Below are positions 298 to 40,251 of a stretch of DNA of 64,000 bases, one piece after another. The stretch is from assembly GCF_000022145.1 (NCBI RefSeq), contig NC_011891.1, positions 2,182,001 to 2,246,000 on the forward strand, written 5' to 3'. Source of the DNA: Anaeromyxobacter dehalogenans 2CP-1 (GTDB lineage Bacteria > Myxococcota > Myxococcia > Myxococcales > Anaeromyxobacteraceae). A program made the translations under genes and the position numbers. The number at the start of each line of letters is the position of its first letter. The first letter of the stretch is position 1. Below the pieces are notes generated by a model. That model did no database searches and was not told where the DNA came from. It worked only from the letters and a program-made list of their open reading frames with translations.

Positions 298-3200
298 TCA
301 GGCAGCAAGGTAGGCATGCGGCTCGGCGCCCGGGACGGGCTCCGCCTGGAGCGCCAAGCCCAGCCGCCACAGGCCCGGGAGGATGCGATGCGCGTGGGCC
401 ACGCGAGCCCAGGCGATCCCCTCCGGGGCGAGCAGGGCCAGCGACGTCCCCGGGGCCGGCATGGCATCGCCCGGGCCGGCGGCGACGAGGCCCAGCCCGC
501 CGGGCGACGCGTCCACCGCGATGGCCCGGCAGGCGCGCCCCGCACCGCAGAGCCGGAGCGGCCGCAGCGCCCGGCGCCGCGCCCCGAGGCGGCGCCGCGG
601 GCGGAGCGGCCGGACCGCCCGCCACAGCCCGGCGAGGAGGTGCCAGGCCATGGCCGCCTGCCATCGGCTGCGCCCGTCGTGCGCGCCCGCGTGCGCCCCG
701 TCGGCCGAGAACGCGATCCGGACCAGCGCGCGCGCCTCGGCCGCGGAGACGCCCTGGAACGCGAGCCCGGCGCGAGGCGCCCCGCCCACCGCCTCGAGGT
801 ACGCGACCCGGGCGCGGAGCCGGAGCCGCTCAGGTCCGTCGAACGTCACCTCCACCTCGGCCGGCAGCGCGGCGCCGGCCGGCAGCGCCACCGCGGCGCC
901 GCCGCGGGCGAGGTCGAGCGTGGTCGCGGCGAGGGACAGCCCCGGAGCGTCCAGCCGCACCGGCACGCGCCGCCGGATCCGCTCGTCCTCGCGGCGCTGC
1001 GGGCGCTCCCATGCGACGAGCAGCGCGAGCAGCACCGAGACGAGGTTCGCGGCCGCCCAGGCCAGGTTGAACGCGTACGCCTCGACCTCGATGCCGAACG
1101 CCCACAGCTCCGCCGCGCCCTTGGCGATGGCGAGCAGCCCGACGGCCGCGGCCGCGAGCGTGAACGCCGAGGTGCGCAGGTCGAAGCGGCGCCGCTCGGA
1201 GCGCACGCCCTTGGGGGTCACCTTGAAGCCGAGGCGCTTCGGAAGGAGCAGGTCGAGCGTGGCGCGCGCGAGCGGGAACGCCACCGCGCCCTCGTACAGG
1301 CTGCCCCAGAGCAGCCGCGGCCAGCCCGGCACCAGCGCCGACGCGGCCAGCGGCGCGGCGACCAGGTGCGGGAGGAGGTACGCGAGCAGCACCGGCAGCT
1401 CGGCGAACAGCGGGTGCAGGTGGAACAGGAGGTACGCGAGCGGCGTGGCGAAGAACACCAGCCGGGCCAGCGGGAAGAAGAAGTACCAGAGCGAGGCGAG
1501 GTAGCCGACGCGGTGCCGGAGCGGCAGCCCGCGCTGGAGGAGCGGGTTGTCGCGGAAGAAGATCTGCAGGCAGCCCAGCATCCAGCGCCGCCGCTGCACC
1601 ACGTAGCTCGCGAGGTCCTCGGCGGAGAGCCCGGCGGCGAGGTCCTCGTCCACGAAGCGCGTGCGCCAGCCCCTCGCGTGCAGCTTCTGGCTGGTGTGGA
1701 TGTCCTCGGTGATGGAGAGCAGGTGGAAGCCGCCCACCGAGGCGAGCGCCTCGCGGCGGAACACCGCGCCGCTGCCCACGAAGAACGCGCCGCCCCAGCG
1801 GTCCCGCGCGCCCTGGATGGCGTGGTTGAACAGGTCCGCCTCGTTCGGCACCGAGGCCGGCGCGCCGAGCGCGCGCTGGAAGACGTCGGGGTTGTAGAAG
1901 TGGTGCGGCGTCTGGACCACGCCGAGCCGCGGGTCGCGGAAGCAGGGCACGGTCCGCTCCAGGAACGCGGCGGTGGGCACGTGGTCGGTGTCGAACACCA
2001 CCACCAGCTCGCCGTCGGTGCGCTGGAGCGCCGCGTTCAGGTTGCCGGCCTTGGCGTGCCGGCGCGGGCCGGCCAGGTAGCGGGCGCCGTGCTCGGCCGC
2101 GAGCCGGGCCACCTCCCCGCGGTGCGAGTCGTCGCAGACCACGATGGTCTTCCGCGGGTAGCGCATCGCCGCGCAGGCGGCGAGCGTCTTGTCGAGGATG
2201 TCGAGCGGCTCGGAGTAGATGGGCACCATCACGTCCACCGACGGGTGCGGCTCGCCGGCCTGGAGCGGCGGCTCGGGCGGGCGGGCGCGGTGGCGGAGCC
2301 CGACCTGCACCACGAGGAGCGCGACGGTGGAGAGCGCGTAGGCCTCGGCGGCGAGGAGCGCCAGCGAGAGGGCGGGGCCGAGCGGCTCGACGAAGTTGAG
2401 CGTCGAGCCGGCGCGCCAGGCGAGGTACCGGATCGACAGGCCGAGCGCGAGCGCCACCAGCGCCGCCCGCGCCGGCCAGAGCCGCCGCGCGAGCGGCGCG
2501 AGCCCGAGCGCCAGCGCGACCGGGAGCAGCGGGAAGCGGTCGCGGAACGCGCCCCAGTCGAGCGAGGACAGGAACGCGAGCGGCTCGTCGAAGCGGCGCA
2601 GGAGCCCTGCCTCCAGGGCGCGCCCGAACCAGAGCCAGTTGTGCAGGTAGTACGGCGTCGCCTCGCCGGAGAGGGCCCGGTCGAACAGCGCGTCGAGCTT
2701 CGACGTCCGCATGGCGCGCGCCAGGTCCGGGTCCTCCACCTGCGCGAGCGCCTGCACCGAGGCGAGGTGGGGGAGCCCGTCCAGCCCGGAGAGGGGGCGG
2801 CCCGAGGTCGTGTACCGCTCGCGCAGCCGCCCCTCGTCGCGGAACGCCTCGGCGGGGAAGCGGAGCAGCCGCGCGCGCAGCTCCGCCTCGCCGCGCCGCC
2901 CGAACCAGCGCGCGTCGAGCGCCACGCGCCAGTAGATCGGCACCGCGTCGTAGCCGAACGCGTCGGGCTGCCCGCCCGGGCGCGCCAGCAGCAGCTCGCC
3001 GGTGCGCGGGTCCACCCAGATCCGCTCGGGCGGGAGCGCCAGGCCCTTCTCGATCAGGAGGAACCGCAGCACCTGGTAGCTCGACTCGACCAGCTCGGCC
3101 CAGGGCCGCTCCGGATCCACGTCGGCGAACACCTGGTACGCGTACGGCGCGAGGTAGGCGACGTGGATCGTCGGGTAGCGCTCGGCGGGCGCCCAGTTCC

Positions 3201-23994: not shown

Positions 23995-25749
23995 GTGAGC
24001 GCATCGCCAGGAACCTCGCCCGGGATCTCCCCGGCCCCCGAGCCGCCCCCGCCGGCGGAGCCCGCGGTGCGTACCCCGGAGCCGGACCGCACACCGGAGG
24101 AGGACCGCGCGCTGCAGCGCCTCGCCAGGGCCATCGCGCCCGCGTCGCTCGGCGCGCTCGGCCTGGAGATCCCCTGGCAGCAGCGGCTCTCCACCAAGCT
24201 GTTCGCCATGATCGGCGCGGTGGCGCTCGGCACCGTGGGCCTGTTCTTCCTGGCGGAGATCGCGGTGCAGCGCCACCTGCTCGGCCAGGTGGTGCAGGAG
24301 TCCGACCTCCTCAGCCAGACCGTCCGCAACGCGCTCCACCGCGCCATGCTCCAGGACCGCCGCGGCGACGCCTACCTCATCATGCAGGACGTGGCGCGGC
24401 AGGGAGGCATCGAGCGCGTCCGCATGATGGACGCGAGCGGGCGCGTCACCTTCTCCACCGTGCCGGAGGAGGTGGGCCGGATGGTGGACCGCGACGCGGA
24501 GGCCTGCTCCGGCTGCCACGCGGCCGGCCAGCCGCTGCGCAAGCTCGAGCTGGAGGAGCGGAGCCGCGTCTTCCGCGCGGGCGACCACCGCGTGCTGGGG
24601 ATCATGACCCCGGTCTACAACGAGGCGTCCTGCTCGACCGGCGCCTGCCACGCGCACCCGGCCACGAAGGAGGTCCTGGGCGTCATCGACCTGGACGTCT
24701 CGCTGGCGCGCCTCGACGCGCAGACCCACACGTTCCGCTGGCGCACGCTGGCGGCCGCCGCGCTCGCCTCGGGCCTGCTCGGGCTGTTCGCCTGGCTGTT
24801 CACGCGCCACCACCTGATGCGGCCGGTGGCCGCGCTGGTGCAGGCCACCCGGCGCGTGGCGCGCGAGCAGCTGGAGCTCGAGGTGCCGGTCACCTGGAAC
24901 GGCGAGCTGGGCCTGCTGGCCGCCTCCTTCAACGACATGACGCGCTCGCTGCGCTCGGCGCGCCGGGACCTCGACGCGCTCATGTCGAGCCTCGAGCAGC
25001 AGGTGCAGGAGCGGACCGCCGCGCTCCGGGCCGCGCAGGACCAGCTGGTCCGGTCGGAGAAGCTCTCCTCGCTGGGCAAGCTGTCCGCGTCCATCGCGCA
25101 CGAGATCAACAACCCGCTCGCGGGGATCCTCACCTTCGCGAAGCTCATCGTCCGCACGCTGGACCAGGGCGTGCCCGACGACGCGACGCGCAAGACGCTC
25201 GTGAAGCACCTGCTCCTCGTCCAGCGCGAGACCGAGCGGTGCAGCGCCATCGTGCGCAACCTGCTCGACTTCGCGCGCGAGCGGCCGCTCACGCTCAAGG
25301 ACGTGGACCTGGACGCGGTGGTCGAGGAGGGCCTCCAGCTCCTCTCCAACCAGATCAACATCCAGAACGTGACGCTGGAGAAGCGGCTCGTGCCGCTGCC
25401 GCCGGTGGAGGGCGACTTCGGGCAGCTCCGGCAGGCGTGCGTGAACGTGATCATGAACGCCTGCGAGGCGATGGCGCGCGGCGGGAAGCTGACGGTCGAG
25501 TCGTCGGCGTCGGCGGGCGGCGGCTGGGTGGAGATCGCGTTCACCGACACCGGCCCGGGCATCCCGCCCGACCACCTGTCCAAGATCTTCGACCCGTTCT
25601 TCACCACCAAGGAGCGCGGCACCGGGCTCGGGCTGTCGGTGGTGTACGGCATCGTCGAGCGGCACCACGGGAAGATCGAGATCCAGAGCGAGGTGGGGAA
25701 GGGGACGCGCATCGCCATCCGGCTGCCGCCCCGGAGGGCGGCGGAGTGA
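23995..25749 (+). CDS. Membrane sensor histidine kinase with periplasmic haem-binding motifs
   Basis: 584 residues, GTG start with a Pro-rich cytoplasmic head. Two membrane helices (about 67-90 and 251-270) enclose a periplasmic sensor domain containing CSGCH (171-175) and CSTGACH (213-219), a CX2CH and a CX4CH motif that could hold c-type haem. After a HAMP-like linker and coiled coil come a HisKA box (IAHEINNP, His369) and a complete HATPase domain (NACEA, DTGPGIP, FTTKERGTGLGL). Predicted to sense redox state or a gas through haem and to phosphorylate the NtrC-type regulator two genes downstream. The archaemetzincin gene lies between them. Confidence 0.9.
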   Translation: MSASPGTSPGISPAPEPPPPAEPAVRTPEPDRTPEEDRALQRLARAIAPASLGALGLEIPWQQRLSTKLFAMIGAVALGTVGLFFLAEIAVQRHLLGQVVQESDLLSQTVRNALHRAMLQDRRGDAYLIMQDVARQGGIERVRMMDASGRVTFSTVPEEVGRMVDRDAEACSGCHAAGQPLRKLELEERSRVFRAGDHRVLGIMTPVYNEASCSTGACHAHPATKEVLGVIDLDVSLARLDAQTHTFRWRTLAAAALASGLLGLFAWLFTRHHLMRPVAALVQATRRVAREQLELEVPVTWNGELGLLAASFNDMTRSLRSARRDLDALMSSLEQQVQERTAALRAAQDQLVRSEKLSSLGKLSASIAHEINNPLAGILTFAKLIVRTLDQGVPDDATRKTLVKHLLLVQRETERCSAIVRNLLDFARERPLTLKDVDLDAVVEEGLQLLSNQINIQNVTLEKRLVPLPPVEGDFGQLRQACVNVIMNACEAMARGGKLTVESSASAGGGWVEIAFTDTGPGIPPDHLSKIFDPFFTTKERGTGLGLSVVYGIVERHHGKIEIQSEVGKGTRIAIRLPPRRAAE

Positions 25750-25820: not shown

Positions 25821-26363
25821 ATGGACCCGATCTTCATCTGGTGGATCGGCGAGGCGGCGCCCGACCGGGCGCTGCTGGACCACGCCGCGCTGCACCTGGC
25901 CCGCGCCTTCGGGCGCCCGGTGCAGGAGTGGACCTCGCCGGAGCGCCCGCGCCACGCCTACGACCCGAAGCGCAAGCAGCACCTCTCCGGCGCGATCCTG
26001 AAATGGCTGCTGGAGGCGGGGCCGGGCGCCGGGAAGGTGCTCGGGGTGACCGACCGCGACCTGTTCATCCCCATCCTCACCTACGTGTTCGGGGAGGGGC
26101 AGCTCGGGGGCGGCGCGGCGGTCGTCTCCACCGCGCGGCTGCTGGAGGACGTCGAGCTGATCGGGCCGCAGCTGCTGCTGGAGCGGCTCGCCAAGGAGGC
26201 GGTGCACGAGGTCGGGCACGCGTTCGGCCTGCTGCACTGCGCGACGCCGGTGTGCGTGATGGCGCGCTCGTCGGGCGTTCGCAACGTGGACGAGAAGATG
26301 CCGGAGCTCTGCTCCGAGTGCCGACGCAGGCTCGAGGAGCTGCAGGCCGGAGGTCCCAGGTGA
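25821..26363 (+). CDS. amzA: Archaemetzincin (AmzA-like zinc metalloprotease)
   Basis: 180 residues. The archaemetzincin signature is complete: HEVGHAFGLLH (His129, Glu130, His133, His139) followed by Cys140, CVM at 145-147, and CSEC (164-167), the four-Cys second zinc site of the family. No signal peptide is visible, so it is probably cytoplasmic. Family members are small metallopeptidases of unclear physiological substrate, widespread in archaea and patchy in bacteria. Its stop overlaps the start of the downstream regulator (TGATG), placing it inside a two-component operon, which is unusual. Confidence 0.92.
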   Translation: MDPIFIWWIGEAAPDRALLDHAALHLARAFGRPVQEWTSPERPRHAYDPKRKQHLSGAILKWLLEAGPGAGKVLGVTDRDLFIPILTYVFGEGQLGGGAAVVSTARLLEDVELIGPQLLLERLAKEAVHEVGHAFGLLHCATPVCVMARSSGVRNVDEKMPELCSECRRRLEELQAGGPR

Positions 26364-27757
26364 TGTCCAACGAGAGAACGCGCATCCTGGTGGTGGACGA
26401 CGAGGAGATCGTCCGCGAGTCGCTGGGCGGCTGGCTCGAGAAGGACGGCTACTCCGTCCACGTGGCGGCGGACGGGTTCGCCGCGGTCGAGAAGCTCAAG
26501 GGGGAGCGCTGGTCGATCCTCATCGTCGACCTGAAGATGCCGGGGATGGACGGCCTGCAGGTGCTGGAGGAGGCGAAGAAGCTCCTGCCCGAGCTGGCGG
26601 TCGTGATCATGACCGCCTACGCCACGGTGGACACCGCGGTCGCGGCCATGAAGCTGGGCGCCTACGACTACCTCGTGAAGCCGTTCGATCCCGAGGAGCT
26701 GTCGCTGATGATGCAGAAGATCGTCTCCCAGCAGACGCTGGTGCGGGAGAACGCGGTCCTGCGCCAGGCGCTGAAGCGCGAGTACAAGTTCCGCGACCTG
26801 CTCTCGAAGAGCCCGGCCATGCAGTCGGTGTTCGAGCTGGCGCGCACCGCGGCCCGCTCCAACTCCACCATCCTGGTGCTGGGCGAGTCCGGCAGCGGCA
26901 AGGAGGTCCTGGCGCGCGCCATCCACCAGGAGAGCCCGCGGGCGGAGGGGCCGTTCGTGGCGGTCTCCTGCGCCGCGCTCACCGAGAGCCTGCTCGAGTC
27001 CGAGCTGTTCGGGCACGAGAAGGGCGCGTTCACCGGCGCGATCGCCCGCCGCAAGGGCAAGTTCGAGGCCGCCCACGGCGGCACGCTGTTCCTCGACGAG
27101 GTGGGCGACATCGGGCCCAAGCTGCAGCTCGACCTGCTGCGGGTGCTGGAGGAGCGGCGCTTCCACCGCATCGGCGGCAACGAGAGCGTCGACGTGGACG
27201 TCCGGATCATCGCCGCCACGAACCGCGACCTGAAGCGCGCGGTGGCGGAGGGGAAGTTCCGCGAGGACCTGTTCTACCGGCTCAACGTCATCCCCATCCT
27301 CATCCCCCCGCTGCGGGACCGGCGCGAGGACGTCCCGCTCCTGGTGGAGAGCTTCGTGGAGCGGCTGTCGGTGGAGATGAAGAAGCGGATCGACGGCGTC
27401 TCCTCCGAGGCGATGAGCGCGCTCATGGCGCACGACTGGCCCGGCAACGTGCGCGAGCTCCGGAACATCCTGGAGCGGGGCGCGGTGGTCTGCACCGGCC
27501 CGGTGATCCAGATCGCCGACCTGGGCCTCCCCGGGAAGCCGGAGACCGCGCCGCGGCCCGGCACGCTCGCCTCGCTGGAGGAGGTGGAGCGGCGCCACGT
27601 CTCGGCGGTCCTGGCGCACACCGGCGGCAACGTGAGCCAGTCGGCGCGCATCCTCGGCATCGACCGGGTCACCCTCTACAACAAGATGCGCAAGTGGGGG
27701 CTGCGCCGGGACGGCGAGGACGAGCCGTCCCGCGACGGCGAGACCGGCGCGCGCTGA
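26363..27757 (+). CDS. NtrC-family sigma-54-dependent response regulator
   Basis: 464 residues in three domains: receiver (about 7-120, phosphoacceptor Asp56), AAA+ (about 148-385; Walker A GESGSGKE 174-181, intact GAFTGA 221-226, Walker B LFLDEVGD) and a Fis-type helix-turn-helix at the C-terminus (SQSARILGIDRVTLYNKM). It should be activated by the haem-motif kinase upstream and drive a -24/-12 promoter. Such a promoter, with dyad sites, lies 404 bases downstream in front of the HybA/HybB operon. Start at the ATG overlapping the amzA stop; a GTG one codon upstream is possible. Confidence 0.95.
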   Translation: MSNERTRILVVDDEEIVRESLGGWLEKDGYSVHVAADGFAAVEKLKGERWSILIVDLKMPGMDGLQVLEEAKKLLPELAVVIMTAYATVDTAVAAMKLGAYDYLVKPFDPEELSLMMQKIVSQQTLVRENAVLRQALKREYKFRDLLSKSPAMQSVFELARTAARSNSTILVLGESGSGKEVLARAIHQESPRAEGPFVAVSCAALTESLLESELFGHEKGAFTGAIARRKGKFEAAHGGTLFLDEVGDIGPKLQLDLLRVLEERRFHRIGGNESVDVDVRIIAATNRDLKRAVAEGKFREDLFYRLNVIPILIPPLRDRREDVPLLVESFVERLSVEMKKRIDGVSSEAMSALMAHDWPGNVRELRNILERGAVVCTGPVIQIADLGLPGKPETAPRPGTLASLEEVERRHVSAVLAHTGGNVSQSARILGIDRVTLYNKMRKWGLRRDGEDEPSRDGETGAR

Positions 27758-28160: not shown

Positions 28161-28176
28161 TGGCGCGCGCCTTGCC
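28161..28176 (+). promoter_or_regulatory. Sigma-54 (-24/-12) promoter of the HybA/HybB/cytochrome operon
   Basis: TGGCGCG-N4-TTGCC with exactly 10 bases between the invariant GG (28162-28163) and GC (28174-28175). This predicts a transcript start near 28187, just ahead of the GGGAGGA ribosome site of the first gene. The adjacent NtrC-type regulator with an intact GAFTGA is the obvious activator. Confidence 0.7.
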
Positions 28177-28204: not shown

Positions 28205-28423
28205 ATGACCTGCCCGTACTTGAAAGAGGTCTCGATGGTGTTCTGCCGGGCCTACCCGGTGAAGAAGCTCGTGCCGATCGACCGGGTCACCACGGCGAGC
28301 ACCTGCGAAGGCGAGGCATTCAAGACCTGCCCGCTCTTCCGCGAGGCGCTCGAGCGTGCGGAACGGTCGGCCGACGCGGACTCCCATCCCTCACCCGCAG
28401 GGCCCAAAGGAGCGACGCCATGA
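28205..28423 (+). CDS. Small four-cysteine protein (CPLF-ending Cys motif), first gene of the cytochrome operon
   Basis: 72 residues, ATG with a strong GGGAGGA site. Four cysteines are spaced C-x9-C-x18-C-x6-C, the last inside CPLFREAL, and there is no signal peptide. It resembles the 78-residue protein at 8886-9122 in cysteine layout and in the CPLFR end. A soluble metal- or Fe-S-binding role is possible but not shown. It directly follows the sigma-54 promoter and its stop overlaps the ATG of the next microprotein. Confidence 0.75.
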   Translation: MTCPYLKEVSMVFCRAYPVKKLVPIDRVTTASTCEGEAFKTCPLFREALERAERSADADSHPSPAGPKGATP

Positions 28424-28497
28424 TGTTCGCATTCGTCGTGATGGTGGTCGGAGTTGCGGTGCTCGGGACCATGAACCTCGTCGCGGCGCACAGCTAG
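28420..28497 (+). CDS. 25-residue single-helix membrane microprotein
   Basis: Reads MMFAFVVMVVGVAVLGTMNL and five more residues: almost entirely one hydrophobic helix. The start (ATGATG) overlaps the stop of the preceding gene and has AAAGGAG 6-12 bases upstream, so translation coupling is likely. It is followed 22 bases later by the HybA-like gene. Such tiny helices are often accessory subunits of membrane redox complexes. Too short for normal gene calling, so its reality rests on the ribosome site, the tight packing and the composition. Confidence 0.6.
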   Translation: MMFAFVVMVVGVAVLGTMNLVAAHS

Positions 28498-28519: not shown

Positions 28520-29422
28520 ATGAAGATCGGACGCAGAGGGTTCTTCAAGATCGCGGCAGTGACGGCGGGGGCCGCCGGCGCGTCGGCGGCGACCGCCGCC
28601 GCAGCGGCGCACGGGGCGGCGGAGGACGGGCCAGGCGTGCTCGTCGACACGACCCTCTGCGTCGGCTGCCGCGCGTGCGAGGCGGCGTGCGCCGAGGCCA
28701 ACCACCTCGCGCCGCCGCCCGAGGACGCGAACGTCTTCGACCAGAAGCGCGACATGCACGAGCAGGCCTTCACGGTGGTGAACCGCACCGAGAAGGCCCC
28801 CGGCATCGAGCGCTTCGCGAAGAAGCAGTGCATGCACTGCCTGGCGCCGGGCTGCGCCTCGGCGTGCCCGGTCAAGGCGATGTCCAAGTCGCCCGAGGGG
28901 CCGGTGGTCTACAACCCGAACCGCTGCATGGGCTGCCGGTACTGCATGATCGCCTGCCCGTTCGACGTGCCGAAGTACGAGTACGGCTCGAACGCGCCGC
29001 GCGTGCGCAAGTGCAGCTTCTGCGCAGAGCGGCAGGCGAAGGGCCTCAAGCCGGCGTGCACCGAGGTGTGCCCCTCGGGCGCGCTCACCTTCGGGAAGCG
29101 CAGCGAGCTCCTCGAGGCCGCCAAGACCCGCATCTACACGAACCCCGGCCGTTACGTGCACCACGTGTACGGCGAGCACGAGGCCGGCGGGACGAGCTGG
29201 CTGTACATCACCGACGTCGACATGGAGCAGCTCGCGTTCCGGACCGACGTCCCCGAGCGGCCCATCCCGGACCTCGCCTCCGGCGCGCTGTCGGTGCCGC
29301 CGTTCGTGATGACGCTCTGGCCGCCGCTGCTGATGGGCATCTACGCGTTCTCCAACCGGCGCGAGGAGATCAAGAACGCCGAGTCGGAGCCGTCGAACGG
29401 GAAGGAGGAGCACCATGGCTAA
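28520..29422 (+). CDS. Tat-exported 4x[4Fe-4S] ferredoxin-type subunit with C-terminal membrane anchor (HybA-like)
   Basis: 300 residues. The twin-arginine signal GRRGFFKIAAV with an Ala-rich h-region occupies residues 1-35. Four cysteine clusters follow (CVGCRACEAAC, CMHCLAPGCASAC, CMGCRYCMIAC, CSFCAERQ...CTEVC), the HybA/NrfC arrangement of four cubane clusters. A hydrophobic segment near residues 256-275 is a HybA-style anchor. Predicted periplasmic electron-transfer subunit coupling to the HybB-like quinone protein, with whose gene it overlaps by 8 bases. No hydrogenase or molybdenum catalytic subunit is in the operon, so the partner is probably the cytochrome. Confidence 0.93.
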   Translation: MKIGRRGFFKIAAVTAGAAGASAATAAAAAHGAAEDGPGVLVDTTLCVGCRACEAACAEANHLAPPPEDANVFDQKRDMHEQAFTVVNRTEKAPGIERFAKKQCMHCLAPGCASACPVKAMSKSPEGPVVYNPNRCMGCRYCMIACPFDVPKYEYGSNAPRVRKCSFCAERQAKGLKPACTEVCPSGALTFGKRSELLEAAKTRIYTNPGRYVHHVYGEHEAGGTSWLYITDVDMEQLAFRTDVPERPIPDLASGALSVPPFVMTLWPPLLMGIYAFSNRREEIKNAESEPSNGKEEHHG

Positions 29423-30626
29423 CGCCACCGCGGTCGCCCAGCACTCGTTCGTCCGCGAGAAGATCCTGCTCGGGATGAGCTTGAAGGAGTACCTCCGCGC
29501 CCAGCTCACGCCGACGAACGCCGTCGCGACGTTCATCCTCATCATCGGCGTGCCGCTGCTCGTCTACCGCTTCGCGGCGGGCCTGGGCGCCACCACGAAC
29601 CTGTCGCAGTCGGCGCCGTGGGGCCTCTGGATCGGCTTCGACATGATGACCGGCATCGTGCTCGCCGCCGGCGGGTTCACCATCGGCTCGGCGGTGCAGC
29701 TGTTCGGGCTGAAGGACTACCACGGCATCGAGCGGCCCGCGATCCTCACCGCCTTCCTCGGCTACGTGATGGCGGTCATCGGCCTGCTCGCCGACCTGGG
29801 CCGCCCCTGGAACATCATCATGGCGCTCTTCAACTTCGGGACCGCCTCGGTGCTGTTCGAGGTCGCGTGGTGCGTCATGTGCTACACGACCGTCCTGCTG
29901 CTCGAGTTCACCGTGCCGATGTTCGAGTGGCTCGGCTGGAAGCGCATCCACTCGGTGATGAAGAAGACGCTCATCGCCCTCACGGTGCTCTCGGTCATCT
30001 TCTCGACCATGCACCAGTCGGCGCTCGGCTCGCTCTTCCTGCTCGCGCCGACCAAGCTCCACCCGCTCTGGTACACGCCCTACATCTTCGTGTTCTTCTT
30101 CGTCAGCGCGATCATCGCCGGCCTCAACATGGTGATCTTCGAGAGCGCGCTCTCGCACCGGATCTTCCAGACCCGGGCCGACCACCACGTCGACGTCGAC
30201 AAGCTGACCATCGGCCTCGGGAAGGCGGCGGCGGTGGTGATGTTCGCCTACTTCTTCCTGAAGCTGCAGAGCGTGGTGGACGGGCACAGCTGGGGCTACC
30301 TGGCCACCGGCTACGGCGCCTGGTGGCTGGTCGAGGTCGTCGGCTTCGTGCTGCTGCCTTCGCTGGTGTTCGCCTACGGCGCGCGCAACCGCAAGGTGAA
30401 GCTCATCCGGGCGGCCTCGGTGATCGGCGTCCTCGGGGTGGTGCTGAACCGCCTGAACATCTCGGTCATCGCGTTCAACTGGAACCGGGTCGACCGGTAC
30501 GTGCCGAGCTGGATGGAGATCTGGGTGTCCATCACCCTCGTCACCATCGGCGTGCTGGCGTACCGCTGGATCGTCAACCGCATGCCCATCCTGCGTGGGG
30601 ACCCGGCGTTCCCCGCTGAGCACTGA
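29415..30626 (+). CDS. HybB/NrfD-family integral membrane quinone-interacting subunit
   Basis: 403 residues with about ten membrane helices. The N-terminal part has the HybB-like APWGLWIGFDMMTGI stretch, followed by LADLGRPWNI and a MHQSALGSLFLL segment typical of HybB. This protein class is the menaquinol/menaquinone site of several periplasm-facing oxidoreductases. With the Fe-S subunit it should move electrons between the quinone pool and periplasmic carriers. The ATG lies inside the end of the upstream gene; the next gene starts 12 bases after its stop. Confidence 0.93.
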   Translation: MANATAVAQHSFVREKILLGMSLKEYLRAQLTPTNAVATFILIIGVPLLVYRFAAGLGATTNLSQSAPWGLWIGFDMMTGIVLAAGGFTIGSAVQLFGLKDYHGIERPAILTAFLGYVMAVIGLLADLGRPWNIIMALFNFGTASVLFEVAWCVMCYTTVLLLEFTVPMFEWLGWKRIHSVMKKTLIALTVLSVIFSTMHQSALGSLFLLAPTKLHPLWYTPYIFVFFFVSAIIAGLNMVIFESALSHRIFQTRADHHVDVDKLTIGLGKAAAVVMFAYFFLKLQSVVDGHSWGYLATGYGAWWLVEVVGFVLLPSLVFAYGARNRKVKLIRAASVIGVLGVVLNRLNISVIAFNWNRVDRYVPSWMEIWVSITLVTIGVLAYRWIVNRMPILRGDPAFPAEH

Positions 30627-30638
30627 AAGGAGGAAGCC

Positions 30639-31361
30639 ATGGCCTACGACCTGCTCTCCGTGTATCCGGCCAAGCTCCTCGAGTACGGACTCGGGATCGC
30701 CTACCTGCTGATGTTCATCCCGTTCTGGCGCTACGTCCAGGGCGGCAAGCCGGCGGCGGCCGAGGTCCGCGCCCCCGCCCGCGTCCCCGCGGTGGCGCCC
30801 GCGGCCCACCCGATCGCGGCCCGGCCCGCGGTGGCTGGCTGGTTCCAGGTGCCCGCCGGCGTGCACCTGCACCCCGGCCACACCTGGGCGCGCCTGGAGT
30901 CCGACGGCCTGGTGGCGGTCGGCGTGGACGACTTCGCCCACAAGCTGGTGGGGCCGGCCCGGGTCGAGCTGCCCAGCGTCGGCGCCAAGGTCGCGCAGGG
31001 CGAGCCGGCGCTCGAGCTCGGCGACGGCGAGCGCAGCGTCCCGATGCTCTCGCCCATCGACGGGACCGTGGTGGCGGTGAACGCGGCGGCGCGCGAGCGG
31101 ACGGACGGCGTCGAGGATCCGTACGGCGCCGGCTGGCTGTTCAAGGTGAAGGCGCCCCGCCTCGCCGCGAACCTCCGCCAGCTCTTCACCGACAGCGCCG
31201 CCAACCGGTTCCTGGAGGACGCGTCCGAGCGCCTCGCCATGCGGATGAGCCCCGAGCTCGGCCGCGTGCTGCAGGACGGCGGCGTGCCCATCCACGGCAT
31301 CGGCCGCGCGCTGGCCGGCGACGACTGGGACGAGATGGCGCGCACCTTCTTCCTGACCTGA
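30639..31361 (+). CDS. Membrane-anchored GcvH-like domain protein lacking the lipoyl lysine (copy 1)
   Basis: 240 residues with a strong AAAGGAGG site. One N-terminal membrane helix (about 17-32), an Ala/Pro linker, then a glycine-cleavage-H-like domain (about 76-173: HPGHTWARLE, GVDDFAHKLVG, LSPIDGTVVAVN, DPYGAGWLFKV). The lysine that carries lipoate in true GcvH aligns with Glu131, so lipoylation is not expected. A helical C-terminal tail follows. No glycine-cleavage genes are near. Position in a quinone/cytochrome operon suggests a structural or assembly subunit, possibly periplasmic. Confidence 0.85.
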   Translation: MAYDLLSVYPAKLLEYGLGIAYLLMFIPFWRYVQGGKPAAAEVRAPARVPAVAPAAHPIAARPAVAGWFQVPAGVHLHPGHTWARLESDGLVAVGVDDFAHKLVGPARVELPSVGAKVAQGEPALELGDGERSVPMLSPIDGTVVAVNAAARERTDGVEDPYGAGWLFKVKAPRLAANLRQLFTDSAANRFLEDASERLAMRMSPELGRVLQDGGVPIHGIGRALAGDDWDEMARTFFLT

Positions 31362-31378
31362 GAACGGAGATCACAGCC

Positions 31379-31717
31379 ATGACGCTCAAGCTCTCGTGGT
31401 GCGGTGCGCTGGCCGGGCTGCTGCTGGGCGGCAGCGCGCTCGCGGGCGACCTCCCGAACCTGCCTCCGGAGCTCCCGCTCCCGCAGGGCGGCGACAGCCC
31501 GGGCCAGGTGACGTTCCGGCACGACAGCCACGTGGACTCGGCCAAGCCGGACTGCGTGTCCTGCCACCCGCGCCGGTTCGGGATCCTCGGCCGCTCGGCC
31601 AAGGAGAAGAAGCAGGCGGTGACGCACGCCGCGATGGAGAAGGGCGAGTCGTGCGGGGCGTGCCACGGCAAGCAGGCGTTCGGGTTCGACGACTGCACCA
31701 TGTGCCACGCGCAGTGA
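31379..31717 (+). CDS. Periplasmic triheme c7-type cytochrome
   Basis: 112 residues with a signal peptide (about 1-22). Three CXXCH motifs at 59-63 (CVSCH), 92-96 (CGACH) and 106-110 (CTMCH), plus free histidines (FRHDSH, VTHAAM) that could serve as distal ligands, give bis-His triheme c7 layout. It is the likely electron carrier for the HybA/HybB-like subunits encoded upstream. A 14-bp hairpin directly downstream may set the expression level of the following gene. Confidence 0.93.
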   Translation: MTLKLSWCGALAGLLLGGSALAGDLPNLPPELPLPQGGDSPGQVTFRHDSHVDSAKPDCVSCHPRRFGILGRSAKEKKQAVTHAAMEKGESCGACHGKQAFGFDDCTMCHAQ

Positions 31718-31730
31718 GGGGGGCGCGTCG

Positions 31731-31767
31731 GCGGTCCCCGGCCCACTCGCTCCGGGCCGGGGACCGC
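31731..31767 (+). terminator. 14-bp hairpin within the operon, after the triheme cytochrome
   Basis: Perfect 14-bp stem (31731-31744 with 31754-31767), 9-base loop, no T-run. It could be a partial terminator or an mRNA-stabilising 3' end for the highly needed cytochrome message, with weaker read-through into the second GcvH-like gene. Confidence 0.5.
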
Positions 31768-31826
31768 AGGCGCGGGTCGATGCAGGCGCCCGGTGACGGG
31801 CGCGGGCTCGCAGTCGGGAGGAAGCC

Positions 31827-32531
31827 ATGCAGAGCGTTCTCGAGGTCCTCCAGTCGATCGGCGTCTTCACCCTCGGCATCCTGGCCCGGTTCGGCCTCTT
31901 CCTCGCGATGGTGGCGGTCATCGTCGTCCCGGCGCTGATCATCGCGCTGGTGGTGCGCGGGCGCGCCGAGCGGCGCGAGCGGGCGCTCGGGATCCGCGAC
32001 GTGGACGGCGTGCCGTTCCGCCCGGACCTGTTCTACGCGCCCGGCCACCTCTGGCTGCACCGGCGCCCGGGCGGCCGCGCGGTGGAGCTCGGCCTCGACG
32101 GCATCGCGCAGCGCCTGATGCCGGCGGTCACGGCGGTGGACCTGGCGCGGCCGGGCACGCGCGTGGCCCGCGGCGAGACCATCGCCACGCTGCACGGCGG
32201 CGGGCGCGCCCTGGAGATCCCCGCGCCGGTGGACGGCACGGTGGTGGGCGTGAACGTCTCGGTGGTGCGCGACCCGGCGCTGGTGAAGCGCGACGGCTAC
32301 GGGCGCGGCTGGCTGGTCGCGCTCGCGCCGGCGGACGAGGCCTACGCGTCGATGCCGCGCGCCGGCGCCGCGGAGTCGTGGATGCGGCGCGAGGCGCAGC
32401 GCTGGAACCACTTCGTCGAGCACCAGCTCGGCTTCGCCGCGGCCGACGGCGGGACGCTGGTCGCGCCCGCGCCGTGGCTGGTCGGCGAGGAGGGATGGGC
32501 CGCCCTGACGCAGGCGTTCCTGCGGCCGTGA
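31827..32531 (+). CDS. Membrane-anchored GcvH-like domain protein lacking the lipoyl lysine (copy 2)
   Basis: 234 residues. One long N-terminal membrane helix (about 14-43), then a GcvH-like fold (about 70-170: APGHLWLH, GLDGIAQRLMP, IPAPVDGTVVGVN, DGYGRGWLVAL). The lipoyl-lysine position aligns with Gly126, so it cannot be lipoylated. Architecture and C-terminal tail match the copy at 30639-31361, but sequence identity is low, so the pair is either an old duplication or two separate recruitments. Ribosome site GGGAGGAAG. Last recognisable gene of the sigma-54 operon. Confidence 0.82.
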   Translation: MQSVLEVLQSIGVFTLGILARFGLFLAMVAVIVVPALIIALVVRGRAERRERALGIRDVDGVPFRPDLFYAPGHLWLHRRPGGRAVELGLDGIAQRLMPAVTAVDLARPGTRVARGETIATLHGGGRALEIPAPVDGTVVGVNVSVVRDPALVKRDGYGRGWLVALAPADEAYASMPRAGAAESWMRREAQRWNHFVEHQLGFAAADGGTLVAPAPWLVGEEGWAALTQAFLRP

Positions 32532-33079: not shown

Positions 33080-34120
33080 ATGATCCGACGCCTGTTGCCC
33101 CTCCTCCTCGCGTTCGCCGCGAACCCAGCCTGGGCGGGTATCCCGGCCGAGCAGGAGGACTGCCTCGGCTGTCACAGCGACCCGAGCCAGACCTTCGACC
33201 TCCCGAGCGGCGAGAAGCTCTCGCTGTACGTCGACCAGGACGCGTTCGCGAAGTCGGTCCACGGCGAGGCGCTCCGCTGCACGGAGTGCCACACCGACAA
33301 GACCAGCGACCACGCCACCGGCGAGCTGAAGTTCAAGACCCGCCGCGACGTGACCCGCGCCTACTACGAGCAGTGCAAGGGCTGCCACTTCGCGAACTAC
33401 ACCAAGACGCTCGACGGCGTTCACTACGCGGTGATGGCCAAGGGCAACGACAAGGCCGCGCTCTGCGTGGACTGCCACGGCGCCCACGACATCTCCCGGC
33501 CGGGCCAGCCGCGCACGCGCATCTCGAAGATGTGCTCGGGCTGCCACGCGGAGGAGGCGGACGTCTACGCGAAGAGCGTGCACGGCCGCGCGGCGGAGAG
33601 CAGCCCCGACGTGCCGGTGTGCACCGACTGCCACCGCGCCCACGACACCACCGACCCGCGCGACGGCCAGCTCGCCATGCGCACCCCGGAGATCTGCGGG
33701 CGCTGCCACACCGACGAGAAGCTGATGTCGAAGTACGGCCTCTCCAGCAAGGTGGTGTCGACCTACCTCTCCGACTTCCACGGCATGGCCGCGACGCTCC
33801 AGCGCAAGCAGAAGAACGCGCCGGACGCGCGCCTCGCCGCGGTCTGCACCGACTGCCATGGCGTCCACGACATCCAGTCGTCCAAGGACCCGTCGTCCAC
33901 GGTGATGGCGGCCAACCTGCAGAAGACCTGCGCGAAGTGCCACGAGGGCGCCAGCGCGAGCTTCCCGAAGGCCTGGCTCTCGCACTACGAGCCCACGCCG
34001 CAGAAGGCGCCGCTCGTGTGGGGCGTGCAGGTCTTCTACAAGATGCTGATCCCGTTCATGGTGGGCGGGCTCGTGCTCCAGATCGCGCTGCACCTCTGGC
34101 GCGTGGTGGTGAACCGATGA
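33080..34120 (+). CDS. Nine-heme c-type cytochrome with C-terminal membrane anchor
   Basis: 346 residues. A signal peptide ends at AWA (about residue 19). Nine CXXCH motifs follow (first CLGCH at 28-32, then CTECH, CKGCH, CVDCH, CSGCH, CTDCH, CGRCH, CTDCH, CAKCH). One membrane helix near residues 316-338 closes the chain. Its stop overlaps the ATG of the cytochrome b gene by 4 bases. Together the two proteins have the parts that Geobacter CbcL carries in one chain (nine-heme domain plus b-type membrane domain), so a menaquinol-oxidising inner-membrane module is the best guess. From memory of CbcL; not verified by search. Confidence 0.92.
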   Translation: MIRRLLPLLLAFAANPAWAGIPAEQEDCLGCHSDPSQTFDLPSGEKLSLYVDQDAFAKSVHGEALRCTECHTDKTSDHATGELKFKTRRDVTRAYYEQCKGCHFANYTKTLDGVHYAVMAKGNDKAALCVDCHGAHDISRPGQPRTRISKMCSGCHAEEADVYAKSVHGRAAESSPDVPVCTDCHRAHDTTDPRDGQLAMRTPEICGRCHTDEKLMSKYGLSSKVVSTYLSDFHGMAATLQRKQKNAPDARLAAVCTDCHGVHDIQSSKDPSSTVMAANLQKTCAKCHEGASASFPKAWLSHYEPTPQKAPLVWGVQVFYKMLIPFMVGGLVLQIALHLWRVVVNR

Positions 34121-34842
34121 GCGCTTACATCGTCCGCTTCAACCTGCAGCAGCGGATCGAGCACTTCATCACGATGCTCGTGTTCGTGCTGCTCTGCCTC
34201 ACCGGCCTGCCGCAGAAGTTCTACACGGCCGGCTGGTCGCAGGCGGTGGTCGGCGTGTTCGGCGGCATCGACGTGGCGCGCTGGGTCCACCGCGTGTGCG
34301 GCCTGATCCTGGCGGCGTCCACGGTGATCCACTTCGCGAACGCGATCGCCGCGATGCTCTCGAAGAAGATCGGCTTCACGATGGTGCCGTCGAAGAAGGA
34401 CTTCGAGGACGCCATCCTCCAGCTCAAGTACTACCTGGGCGTGACCGACAAGCACCCGATGTACGATCGGTACACGTACAAGGAGAAGTTCGAGTACTGG
34501 GGCCTGGTGTTCGGCAACGTCATCATGGTGCTCACCGGCTTCATCCTGTTCTTCCCGGTGACCGTCGCGTCGCTGCTCCCGGGCGAGGTGATCCCCGCCG
34601 CCAAGGTGGCCCACTCGAACGAGGGCCTGATGGCGTTCCTGGTGATCACCATCTGGCACGTGTTCAACGCGCACCTGAGCCCCGACGTGTTCCCGTTCGA
34701 CACGTCGATGTTCACCGGCAAGGTCAGCCGCGAGCGCTACGAGCACGAGCACCCGCTCGAGCTCGCGCGCATCGAGGGGCGGGCGCCGCCCGCGGAGCAC
34801 GGCGGCCACGCCTCGTCGCATGACGAGCGCCACGTGGGCTGA
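34117..34842 (+). CDS. Cytochrome b membrane subunit (formate-dehydrogenase-gamma/CbcL-like)
   Basis: 241 residues with four main membrane helices. Histidines suited for two b haems are present: RIEHFITM in helix 1, VHRVCG in helix 2, VIHF and AHSNEG in the middle, and IWHVFNAH in the last helix. The C-terminal cytoplasmic tail is charged and His-rich. It should take electrons from menaquinol and pass them to the nine-heme subunit encoded by the overlapping upstream gene. The last 23 bases overlap the start of the M56 protease gene. Confidence 0.9.
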   Translation: MSAYIVRFNLQQRIEHFITMLVFVLLCLTGLPQKFYTAGWSQAVVGVFGGIDVARWVHRVCGLILAASTVIHFANAIAAMLSKKIGFTMVPSKKDFEDAILQLKYYLGVTDKHPMYDRYTYKEKFEYWGLVFGNVIMVLTGFILFFPVTVASLLPGEVIPAAKVAHSNEGLMAFLVITIWHVFNAHLSPDVFPFDTSMFTGKVSRERYEHEHPLELARIEGRAPPAEHGGHASSHDERHVG

Positions 34843-39346: not shown

Positions 39347-39766
39347 CTACTCGTCGCCGCGCTTGCGGGCGATCTCGTCCTCGAGCGCCTTCAGCTCCTT
39401 CGTCGGCGCGGCGCCCGGCGCCTTCTCCTCCTCCTCGCCGGGCTTGCCGGTGAAGTGCGCCTCGCCGGGCCGCCACCCGGGGTGGACGGTGGCGGCGAGG
39501 TCGGCCGCGCCCTCCTTCACCCCGCCGGTCACCTTCTTCACCACCGCGTGCACCAGGAGCGCGAACCCGATCACCGGCATGAACATCAGGAACAGCGCCC
39601 CGAGCACCGGCACCACGACCAGGAGCAGGGGGAACGGCACCTTCACGAACCGTGCGCCGCTGCCCGGGAGGCGCCCGCCCTCCGACGGGACCACCTCGAC
39701 CGCCCACGCCCTCGGGTTCCAGTAGTAGCCGCCCTTCACGTTCGCTCCGCCCGTGTACTTGGCCAT
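39347..39766 (-). CDS. Single-helix membrane protein, tandem paralogue A (function unknown)
   Basis: 139 residues, ATG with AAGGAG upstream. The N-terminal part reads KGGYYWNPRAWAVEVVP; one long membrane helix (about 47-75, with [13 protein letters not shown]) and a charged C-terminus with the conserved stretch [17 protein letters not shown] follow. The next gene upstream encodes a clear paralogue sharing all three blocks, so the pair arose by tandem duplication. No known family recognised. Conserved Tyr/Trp blocks on both sides of the helix suggest a membrane-interface or complex-assembly role. Confidence 0.75.
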   Translation of the reverse strand: MAKYTGGANVKGGYYWNPRAWAVEVVPSEGGRLPGSGARFVKVPFPLLLVVVPVLGALFLMFMPVIGFALLVHAVVKKVTGGVKEGAADLAATVHPGWRPGEAHFTGKPGEEEEKAPGAAPTKELKALEDEIARKRGDE

Positions 39767-39822
39767 GACCGTCTCCTTCCGTGCCGCTCCGTCGACCGTG
39801 GGACCGCGGTGGACCGCGCCGC

Positions 39823-40251
39823 TCAGCTCTGGCGCCGCTTCTCCTCGATCTCCTTCTCGAGCGCCTCGAGCTTCTCGTCGCGCGCCGACGGCCCCTTCTC
39901 CTCGACGCCGCCGTTCTCCGGGGACTTGCCGGTGAAGTGCGCCTCGCCGGGCTGCCAGCCGGGGCTCATGGTGGCGGCCAGCTCCTCGGCGGGGCCGCGG
40001 AAGGTGCGGACCGCGCGCATCGCCACCGCCTGCGCCAGCAGCACGAAGCCGATGACCGGCATGAACATCAGGAACGTCGCGCCGAGCACCGGGGTGAGCA
40101 CCAGCGCCAGGGCCACCGGGATCCGCCGCCACTCGCCCTTGCCCTGCGGGAGGCGCTCGCCGTCCTTCGCGACCGGCTCGATCGCCCACCGGGAGAGGTT
40201 GAGGTAGTAACCGCTCTGCACCGCGCTGCCGCTCTTGAACGTGTTGGCCAT
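39823..40251 (-). CDS. Single-helix membrane protein, tandem paralogue B (function unknown)
   Basis: 142 residues, start with AAAGGAGC upstream. Same layout as the neighbour at 39347-39766: [15 protein letters not shown], a membrane helix with [13 protein letters not shown], then [15 protein letters not shown] and a Glu/Lys-rich tail. The two genes are 56 bases apart on the same strand and likely cotranscribed. The upstream side carries a perfect 8-bp dyad (40266-40289). Function not recognised. Confidence 0.75.

Follow-up and report, generated by a model that had tools for sequence, protein, structure and literature searches.

Our best reading of the respiratory operon which we have studied in Anaeromyxobacter dehalogenans 2CP-1 is that it encodes a new variant of an Hmc-like complex, one that carries GcvH docking domains without the lipoyl lysine and lies within a conserved cluster of a histidine kinase, a sigma-54 regulator and an archaemetzincin. 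The window analysed is a stretch of 64,000 nucleotides, and positions given without a locus number refer to it. Two proteins are central here, G1 (30639-31361, + strand; 240 aa) and G2 (31827-32531, +; 234 aa). Both consist of an N-terminal membrane segment, which is HmcD-like in G1, a lysine-less GcvH domain (residues ~70-195 and ~63-190, respectively) and a C-terminal extension with a DGG motif followed by W and F. The first-pass annotation of this DNA had ascribed to each of them one N-terminal helix and a GcvH fold, and we found the same: the helix of G1 spans residues 8-33 and that of G2 residues 2-54, GCV_H is the sole Pfam family over its cut-off of 22.2 bits for either protein (65.7 for G1, 63.0 for G2), and their top sequence matches in the PDB are H-proteins (E 3e-16 and 2e-14). 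Structure prediction, run on each protein alone, gave AlphaFold models with a mean pLDDT of 85 for G1 (56 homologues) and 90 for G2 (27 homologues). The model of G1 matches H-proteins with Z 19.6 and an rmsd of 1.7 Å over 129 residues, and that of G2 with Z 18.9 and 1.3 Å over 125 residues; a complete H-protein fold is thus shown by the predicted structures of both. In a gapless alignment of the hairpin, the column of the lipoyl lysine holds Glu131 in G1 and Gly126 in G2, the very residues that had been named earlier. It had also been stated that the operon contains no glycine-cleavage genes, and indeed the true gcvH is a separate gene between gcvT and gcvP, ~0.78 Mb away (L010) in the genome of 5,029,329 bp. 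With 71.5 and 61.2 bits for G1 and 64.5 and 48.6 for G2, both proteins score below the cut-offs of the NCBIfam GcvH models (117 and 115.85), and we rejected their membership in these families. G1 shares 96% identity with its counterpart in Anaeromyxobacter strain PSR-1. Both proteins also have stand-alone paralogues elsewhere in the 2CP-1 genome, where hmc genes are absent (L009:7951-8697, +, and L008:8249-9037, -).

Are G1 and G2 just two odd proteins, as they had appeared at first? This part of the first-pass annotation did not stand, since they belong to a family with its own C-terminal signature, of which we sampled 199 members from about ten phyla. Scanning the genomes of bacteria and archaea yielded 79 loci, which are distributed over Myxococcota, Acidobacteriota, Rokubacteria, Nitrospinota, Nitrospirota and Gemmatimonadota, with further ones in Desulfobacterota-type 'Deltaproteobacteria', Ignavibacteria/Bacteroidota, Neomarinimicrobiota and 'Abyssobacteria'. 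The members were gathered by patterns and a profile derived from G1-like proteins, so that divergent branches are under-sampled in these numbers. Of 297 genomes from the phylum to which a Syntrophobacteraceae MAG belongs, 77 have the family at E 1e-40 or better. A cluster may hold up to three copies; in one Ignavibacteriales genome (G196; locus L178 and others) we counted about eight GcvH-like copies across several clusters, one of which has a cysP-GcvH fusion, a pentahaem cytochrome and an NrfD-like gene. The residues in the lipoyl column of the 199 aligned members are most often Gly (73), followed by Ser (25), Asp (22), Lys (17) and Glu (16), and the structural residues common to GcvH are near-invariant across the family. 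The extension carries D-G-G in 170 members and G-G in 185, with a conserved Trp and Phe after it; true GcvH stops short of this extension and does not have the motif. The comparison with GcvH in a tree, which had been suggested earlier, was made without the motif columns (117 columns), and it placed Lys-bearing and Lys-less sequences on opposite sides of one branch with an SH-aLRT of 85. The loss of the lipoyl lysine is a trait of the family, and it is not due to chance or decay: the site is lysine-less throughout the family in about ten phyla. There is no NCBIfam model for the family, whose members stay well under the GcvH cut-offs of ~116 bits. Membership in two named groups of GcvH relatives was rejected as well, with scores of 21-44 bits against a cut-off of 150 for NF045810 and of 26-36 bits against 144 for TIGR03077.

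Two other explanations of these proteins bear directly on the missing lysine. G1 and G2 exceed the Pfam cut-off for GCV_H and are therefore named H-proteins, and one might take them for recent gcvH duplicates in decay, named after a domain match and without a selected function; however, structural residues which are near-invariant over such a range of phyla, together with a new C-terminal motif and a gene order that are both conserved, make this hardly credible. Could the domain still be a covalent carrier of lipoate or another group, attached through the basic residue that follows the site of the lost lysine or through a Cys of a fused Cys-rich module? The residue next to the lipoyl column is basic in 68% of the members (R in 53%, K in 15%), 17 of the 199 keep a Lys at the site itself, and the GcvH relatives called LbpA serve as lipoate carriers with Hdr-like complexes (PMC6067878). 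However, most members have Arg as the neighbouring residue, and near-identical G1 orthologues have either R or K there; we therefore rejected a lysine shifted by one residue as the attachment site. The motif E-S-x-K-A occurs in none of the 199 aligned members, and neither the dedicated lipoate ligase nor the LipS1/S2 genes that accompany LbpA are among the recurrent neighbours of the family loci. We consider a carrier function improbable. Despite their naming as 'glycine cleavage system H' by domain match, the members are probably not lipoate carriers, so that this annotation misleads, and so do metabolic models that rely on it.

The order of the operon is cysP, membrane peptide, HmcB, HmcC, G1, c7 and G2. 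The first gene, cysP (28205-28423, +), encodes 72 aa with four conserved Cys (C-x10-C-x19-C-x7-C) and overlaps by four bases with that of a membrane peptide of 25 aa (28420-28497, +); neither product matched a family, which for cysP means Pfam or NCBIfam. They are followed by an HmcB/HybA-like 4Fe-4S protein (28520-29422, +; NF045715, 342.5 bits, E 2e-102) with a Tat-like signal (RRGFFK) and a C-terminal anchor, and by an HmcC/HybB-like quinone-binding membrane subunit of the NrfD family (29415-30626, +; NF045714, 481.8 bits, E 2e-144; PF03916). The triheme cytochrome which G1 and G2 had been reported to flank is a periplasmic protein of the c7 type with three CxxCH motifs (31379-31717, +; TIGR04257, 67 bits). 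The next unit consists of a multihaem cytochrome c (33080-34120, +), with a homologue in 9-10 of the 79 loci, and the cytochrome b561-type subunit paired with it (34117-34842, +; PF01292, 48 bits), found in 8-9 of them; this pair (33080-34842) may be an optional electron partner of the operon. Further downstream, at approximately 39347-39772 and 39823-40251 (-), a family of small membrane proteins is represented by two copies in tandem; it recurs near GcvH-like clusters at L056, L061, L048, L065 and L180.

G1 lies directly behind hmcC, and in Hmc operons this is where hmcD comes. The first ~38 residues of G1-type proteins resemble HmcD: 18 of 56 match NF045712 (best E 8.7e-11), and with a profile of stand-alone HmcD proteins 36 of the 56 N-termini beat the best of 1093 shuffles. 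A profile-profile comparison with HmcD over 26 rows gave a probability of 88% and E 3e-6, and a genome search revealed an HmcD match over the curated cut-off within a GcvH-like frame of 247 aa (G214:C18). The match of the G1 protein of the window is weak (6.8 bits, a score that 2 of 1120 shuffles reach), so that its homology to HmcD rests on its relatives. G2, whose N-terminus gave no HmcD match, was rejected as a second HmcD-like protein. The best reading of G1, from its sequence and those of its relatives, is that of an HmcD-GcvH fusion which serves as a subunit in an Hmc-like complex, and the HmcD homology is the strongest evidence for this place. The first-pass annotation had proposed that the GcvH fold was reused as a structural or assembly subunit of a redox complex. 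Membership of G1 in such a complex is well supported, as its HmcD-like N-terminus, its position behind hmcC and the synteny across phyla argue for it. The support does not extend to a purely structural or assembly role; the domain also occurs without HmcBC or fused to HdrA, receiver and Cys-rich modules, and its most specific companions are an archaemetzincin and a sigma-54 two-component system. Frames of ~650 aa that end in G1 had the appearance of an NrfD-GcvH (HmcC-GcvH) fusion; this candidate was dismissed, since their upstream part is an open high-GC frame and not HmcC sequence.

On which side of the membrane would the GcvH domain lie? An N-terminal membrane helix was found in 121 of 143 members, and in 103 of these 121 there are more K/R residues after the helix than before it (means 2.8 vs 0.8). 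By the positive-inside rule, this surplus predicts a cytoplasmic GcvH domain in most members. In 16 members the helix is replaced by a Cys-rich module (C-[VI]-W...C...C..C), and in Desulfobacterota-type genomes the domain forms the C-terminus of HdrA-like proteins. Two examples of the latter are encoded at L169:7705-11109 (-), with 845 bits to HdrA2 and with genes of M54 and of a sigma-54 regulator nearby, and at L170:7267-10179 (-). Judging from sequence, the domain stands behind a receiver domain at the myxococcotal locus L034, where fusions of receiver and GcvH-like domains lie at 652-1935 and 1826-2692 (both -), and behind ferredoxin-like domains at L032 and L035. At L081 and L178, cysP is fused to the domain. 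The HdrA and Cys-module fusions point to candidate partners of the domain. A separate observation concerns HmcB: the HmcB-like proteins at L103:6484-7242, L111:4499-5263 and L112:7592-8356 (Ignavibacteria, some Deltaproteobacteria, Acidobacteriota) have no Tat signal, so that a cytoplasmic location of the Fe-S subunit is possible in these cases.

The H-protein has two tasks in glycine cleavage: it has to bind the enzymes of the system and to offer them the lipoate arm. With the arm gone, binding is what remains of this role, and we infer from the fold, the fusions and the loss of the arm that the lysine-less domain docks in the cytoplasm. The reading we favour, and which we hold to be somewhat probable, is that G1 is the HmcD-type subunit of an Hmc-like complex extended by a GcvH docking domain and that G2 is a second membrane-anchored copy. 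According to this model, G1 would be a small membrane subunit of a complex of HmcB, HmcC and c7, with the GcvH domain at its C-terminus, and G2 would add another membrane-anchored copy of this domain. The domain would act as a fixed docking module, which has kept the protein-binding surface of the H-protein and lost the swinging arm, and would bring a partner from the cytoplasm to the quinone-reactive HmcC, while HmcB, with its Tat-like signal, and c7 would exchange electrons on the periplasmic side. Activation of the operon would fall to the haem-sensor kinase and the sigma-54 regulator, and the archaemetzincin would most likely process or degrade some member of the set. A role tied to Hmc only would be too narrow, because the family is also found without HmcBC.

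The genes for these regulators lie upstream of the operon. The membrane histidine kinase (23995-25749, +; 584 aa; HisKA, HATPase_c and HAMP) carries two c-type haem motifs, CSGCH and CSTGACH, within the sensor part, and the response regulator is of the NtrC sigma-54 type (26363-27757, +; 464 aa; Response_reg, Sigma54_activat and HTH_8), its gene overlapping by one base with the stop of the M54 gene. Over the 79 loci, HmcC is encoded in 60, HmcB in 59, a homologue of the haem-motif kinase in 48, archaemetzincin in 42, c7 in 27 and cysP in 25; the sigma-54 regulator, counted by an independent clustering, is present in 49. A site resembling a sigma-54 -24/-12 promoter, TGGCGCGCGCCTTGCC (28161-28176, +), agrees with the consensus in 10 of 12 positions and lies 44 bp before the first gene of the operon. 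Of 71 family operons, 18 are preceded by such a site, compared with 1.4% of random segments. It is most likely that the haem-sensor kinase and the sigma-54 regulator switch the operon on. A sigma-54-like site also lies 202 bp upstream of the stand-alone G1 paralogue in the same genome, which suggests that the operon and this paralogue might form one regulon.

More questions are raised by the archaemetzincin. The peptidase M54 of the window (25821-26363, +; PF07998, 76.8 bits) has the complete motif HExxHxxGxxHC...CxM...CxxC, and the active-site motif is complete in 38 of 39 M54 proteins. Among the 297 genomes of one phylum mentioned above, M54 is encoded in 72 of 77 family-positive and 36 of 220 family-negative genomes (Fisher p 3e-35, a value that overstates independence because the genomes are related), and in 63 of the 72 genomes carrying both, its gene is within 8 kb of the family. 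The association is weaker in Myxococcota (p 0.006), where other reasons make M54 common: 136 of 195 genomes have it, 113 of them without the family. The occurrence of M54 goes with that of the GcvH-like protein rather than with that of Hmc; at L106, L118, L169, L173, L175 and L177, where HmcBC is absent, M54 follows the GcvH-like gene. This association is the part of our data which a purely structural role explains least. Is it possible, then, that the GcvH-like proteins are elements of signalling and proteolysis, with M54 cleaving or binding their flexible D-G-G tail under the control of the haem-sensor kinase, so that the redox state of the membrane leads to regulated proteolysis or maturation? 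The co-occurrence and proximity of the genes, the M54 genes behind GcvH-like genes at loci without HmcBC, the intact active site and the receiver domains fused at L034 all favour this. So does the position of D-G-G in a linker that both models predict with low confidence (blocks at pLDDT 71 and 64-70), which fits a putative processing or binding site. However, the frequent occurrence of M54 without the family in Myxococcota speaks against it, and the sigma-54 sites suggest that the kinase and regulator may do no more than control transcription. We regard this explanation as possible and rather unlikely. Perhaps, and we put this forward tentatively and with doubt, the lysine-less GcvH domain with its D-G-G tail, the archaemetzincin and the pair of diheme sensor and sigma-54 regulator would make up one conserved, undescribed redox-control system which plugs into HmcBC at the membrane or into HdrA in the cytoplasm, D-G-G being the substrate or docking site of M54. 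If true, this would be the first natural role for bacterial archaemetzincins. A passage of one paper on this group calls its biological importance little known (PMC3427221). The protease of the cluster resembles the described M54 proteins in its full motif and differs from them in its association with GcvH-like proteins, which was not found for any of them in the literature searched.

Returning to the variant of the Hmc-like complex with docking domains, the family of lysine-less GcvH-like proteins is apparently undescribed: neither the family nor its link to M54 came up in our literature search, which left most subscription papers outside, so that an earlier account may exist, and a review of NrfD-like complexes mentions neither glycine cleavage nor lipoyl proteins (PMC8076601). 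The gene order over many phyla ties together three poorly understood things, the Hmc-like quinone complexes of anaerobes, HdrA-type flavoproteins and archaemetzincins. After LbpA, the family gives a second case of an H-protein fold in a respiratory redox system, here without the cofactor. How do these proteins compare with systems already known? With GcvH (PF01597), G1 and G2 share the complete H-protein fold, and they differ from it in the absent lipoyl lysine, the location outside a gcv operon, the membrane anchor, the DGG extension and scores under the NCBIfam cut-offs. NF045810, a GcvH-related protein of the Desulfo-group, and TIGR03077 are likewise named GcvH relatives that are not called GcvH, whereas our family scores far under both cut-offs. 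LbpA of sHdr sulfur oxidation (PMC6067878, PMC10332631) is also a GcvH relative which goes with an Hdr-like redox system, and our family includes HdrA-GcvH fusions; however, all 95 LbpA proteins examined have kept the lipoyl lysine (PMC6067878), whereas the family described here has lost it and has gained a membrane anchor or Cys module and the DGG extension. The Hmc complex of sulfate reducers (HmcABCDEF) is the counterpart of the operon in having HmcB- and HmcC-like proteins and an HmcD-like segment behind HmcC. It differs in that the 16-haem HmcA, HmcE and HmcF are not among the genes of the operon and in that HmcB and HmcC of the window stay under the NCBIfam equivalog cut-offs of 420 and 550 bits; in our variant a triheme c7 stands in place of HmcA, and HmcD bears a GcvH domain.
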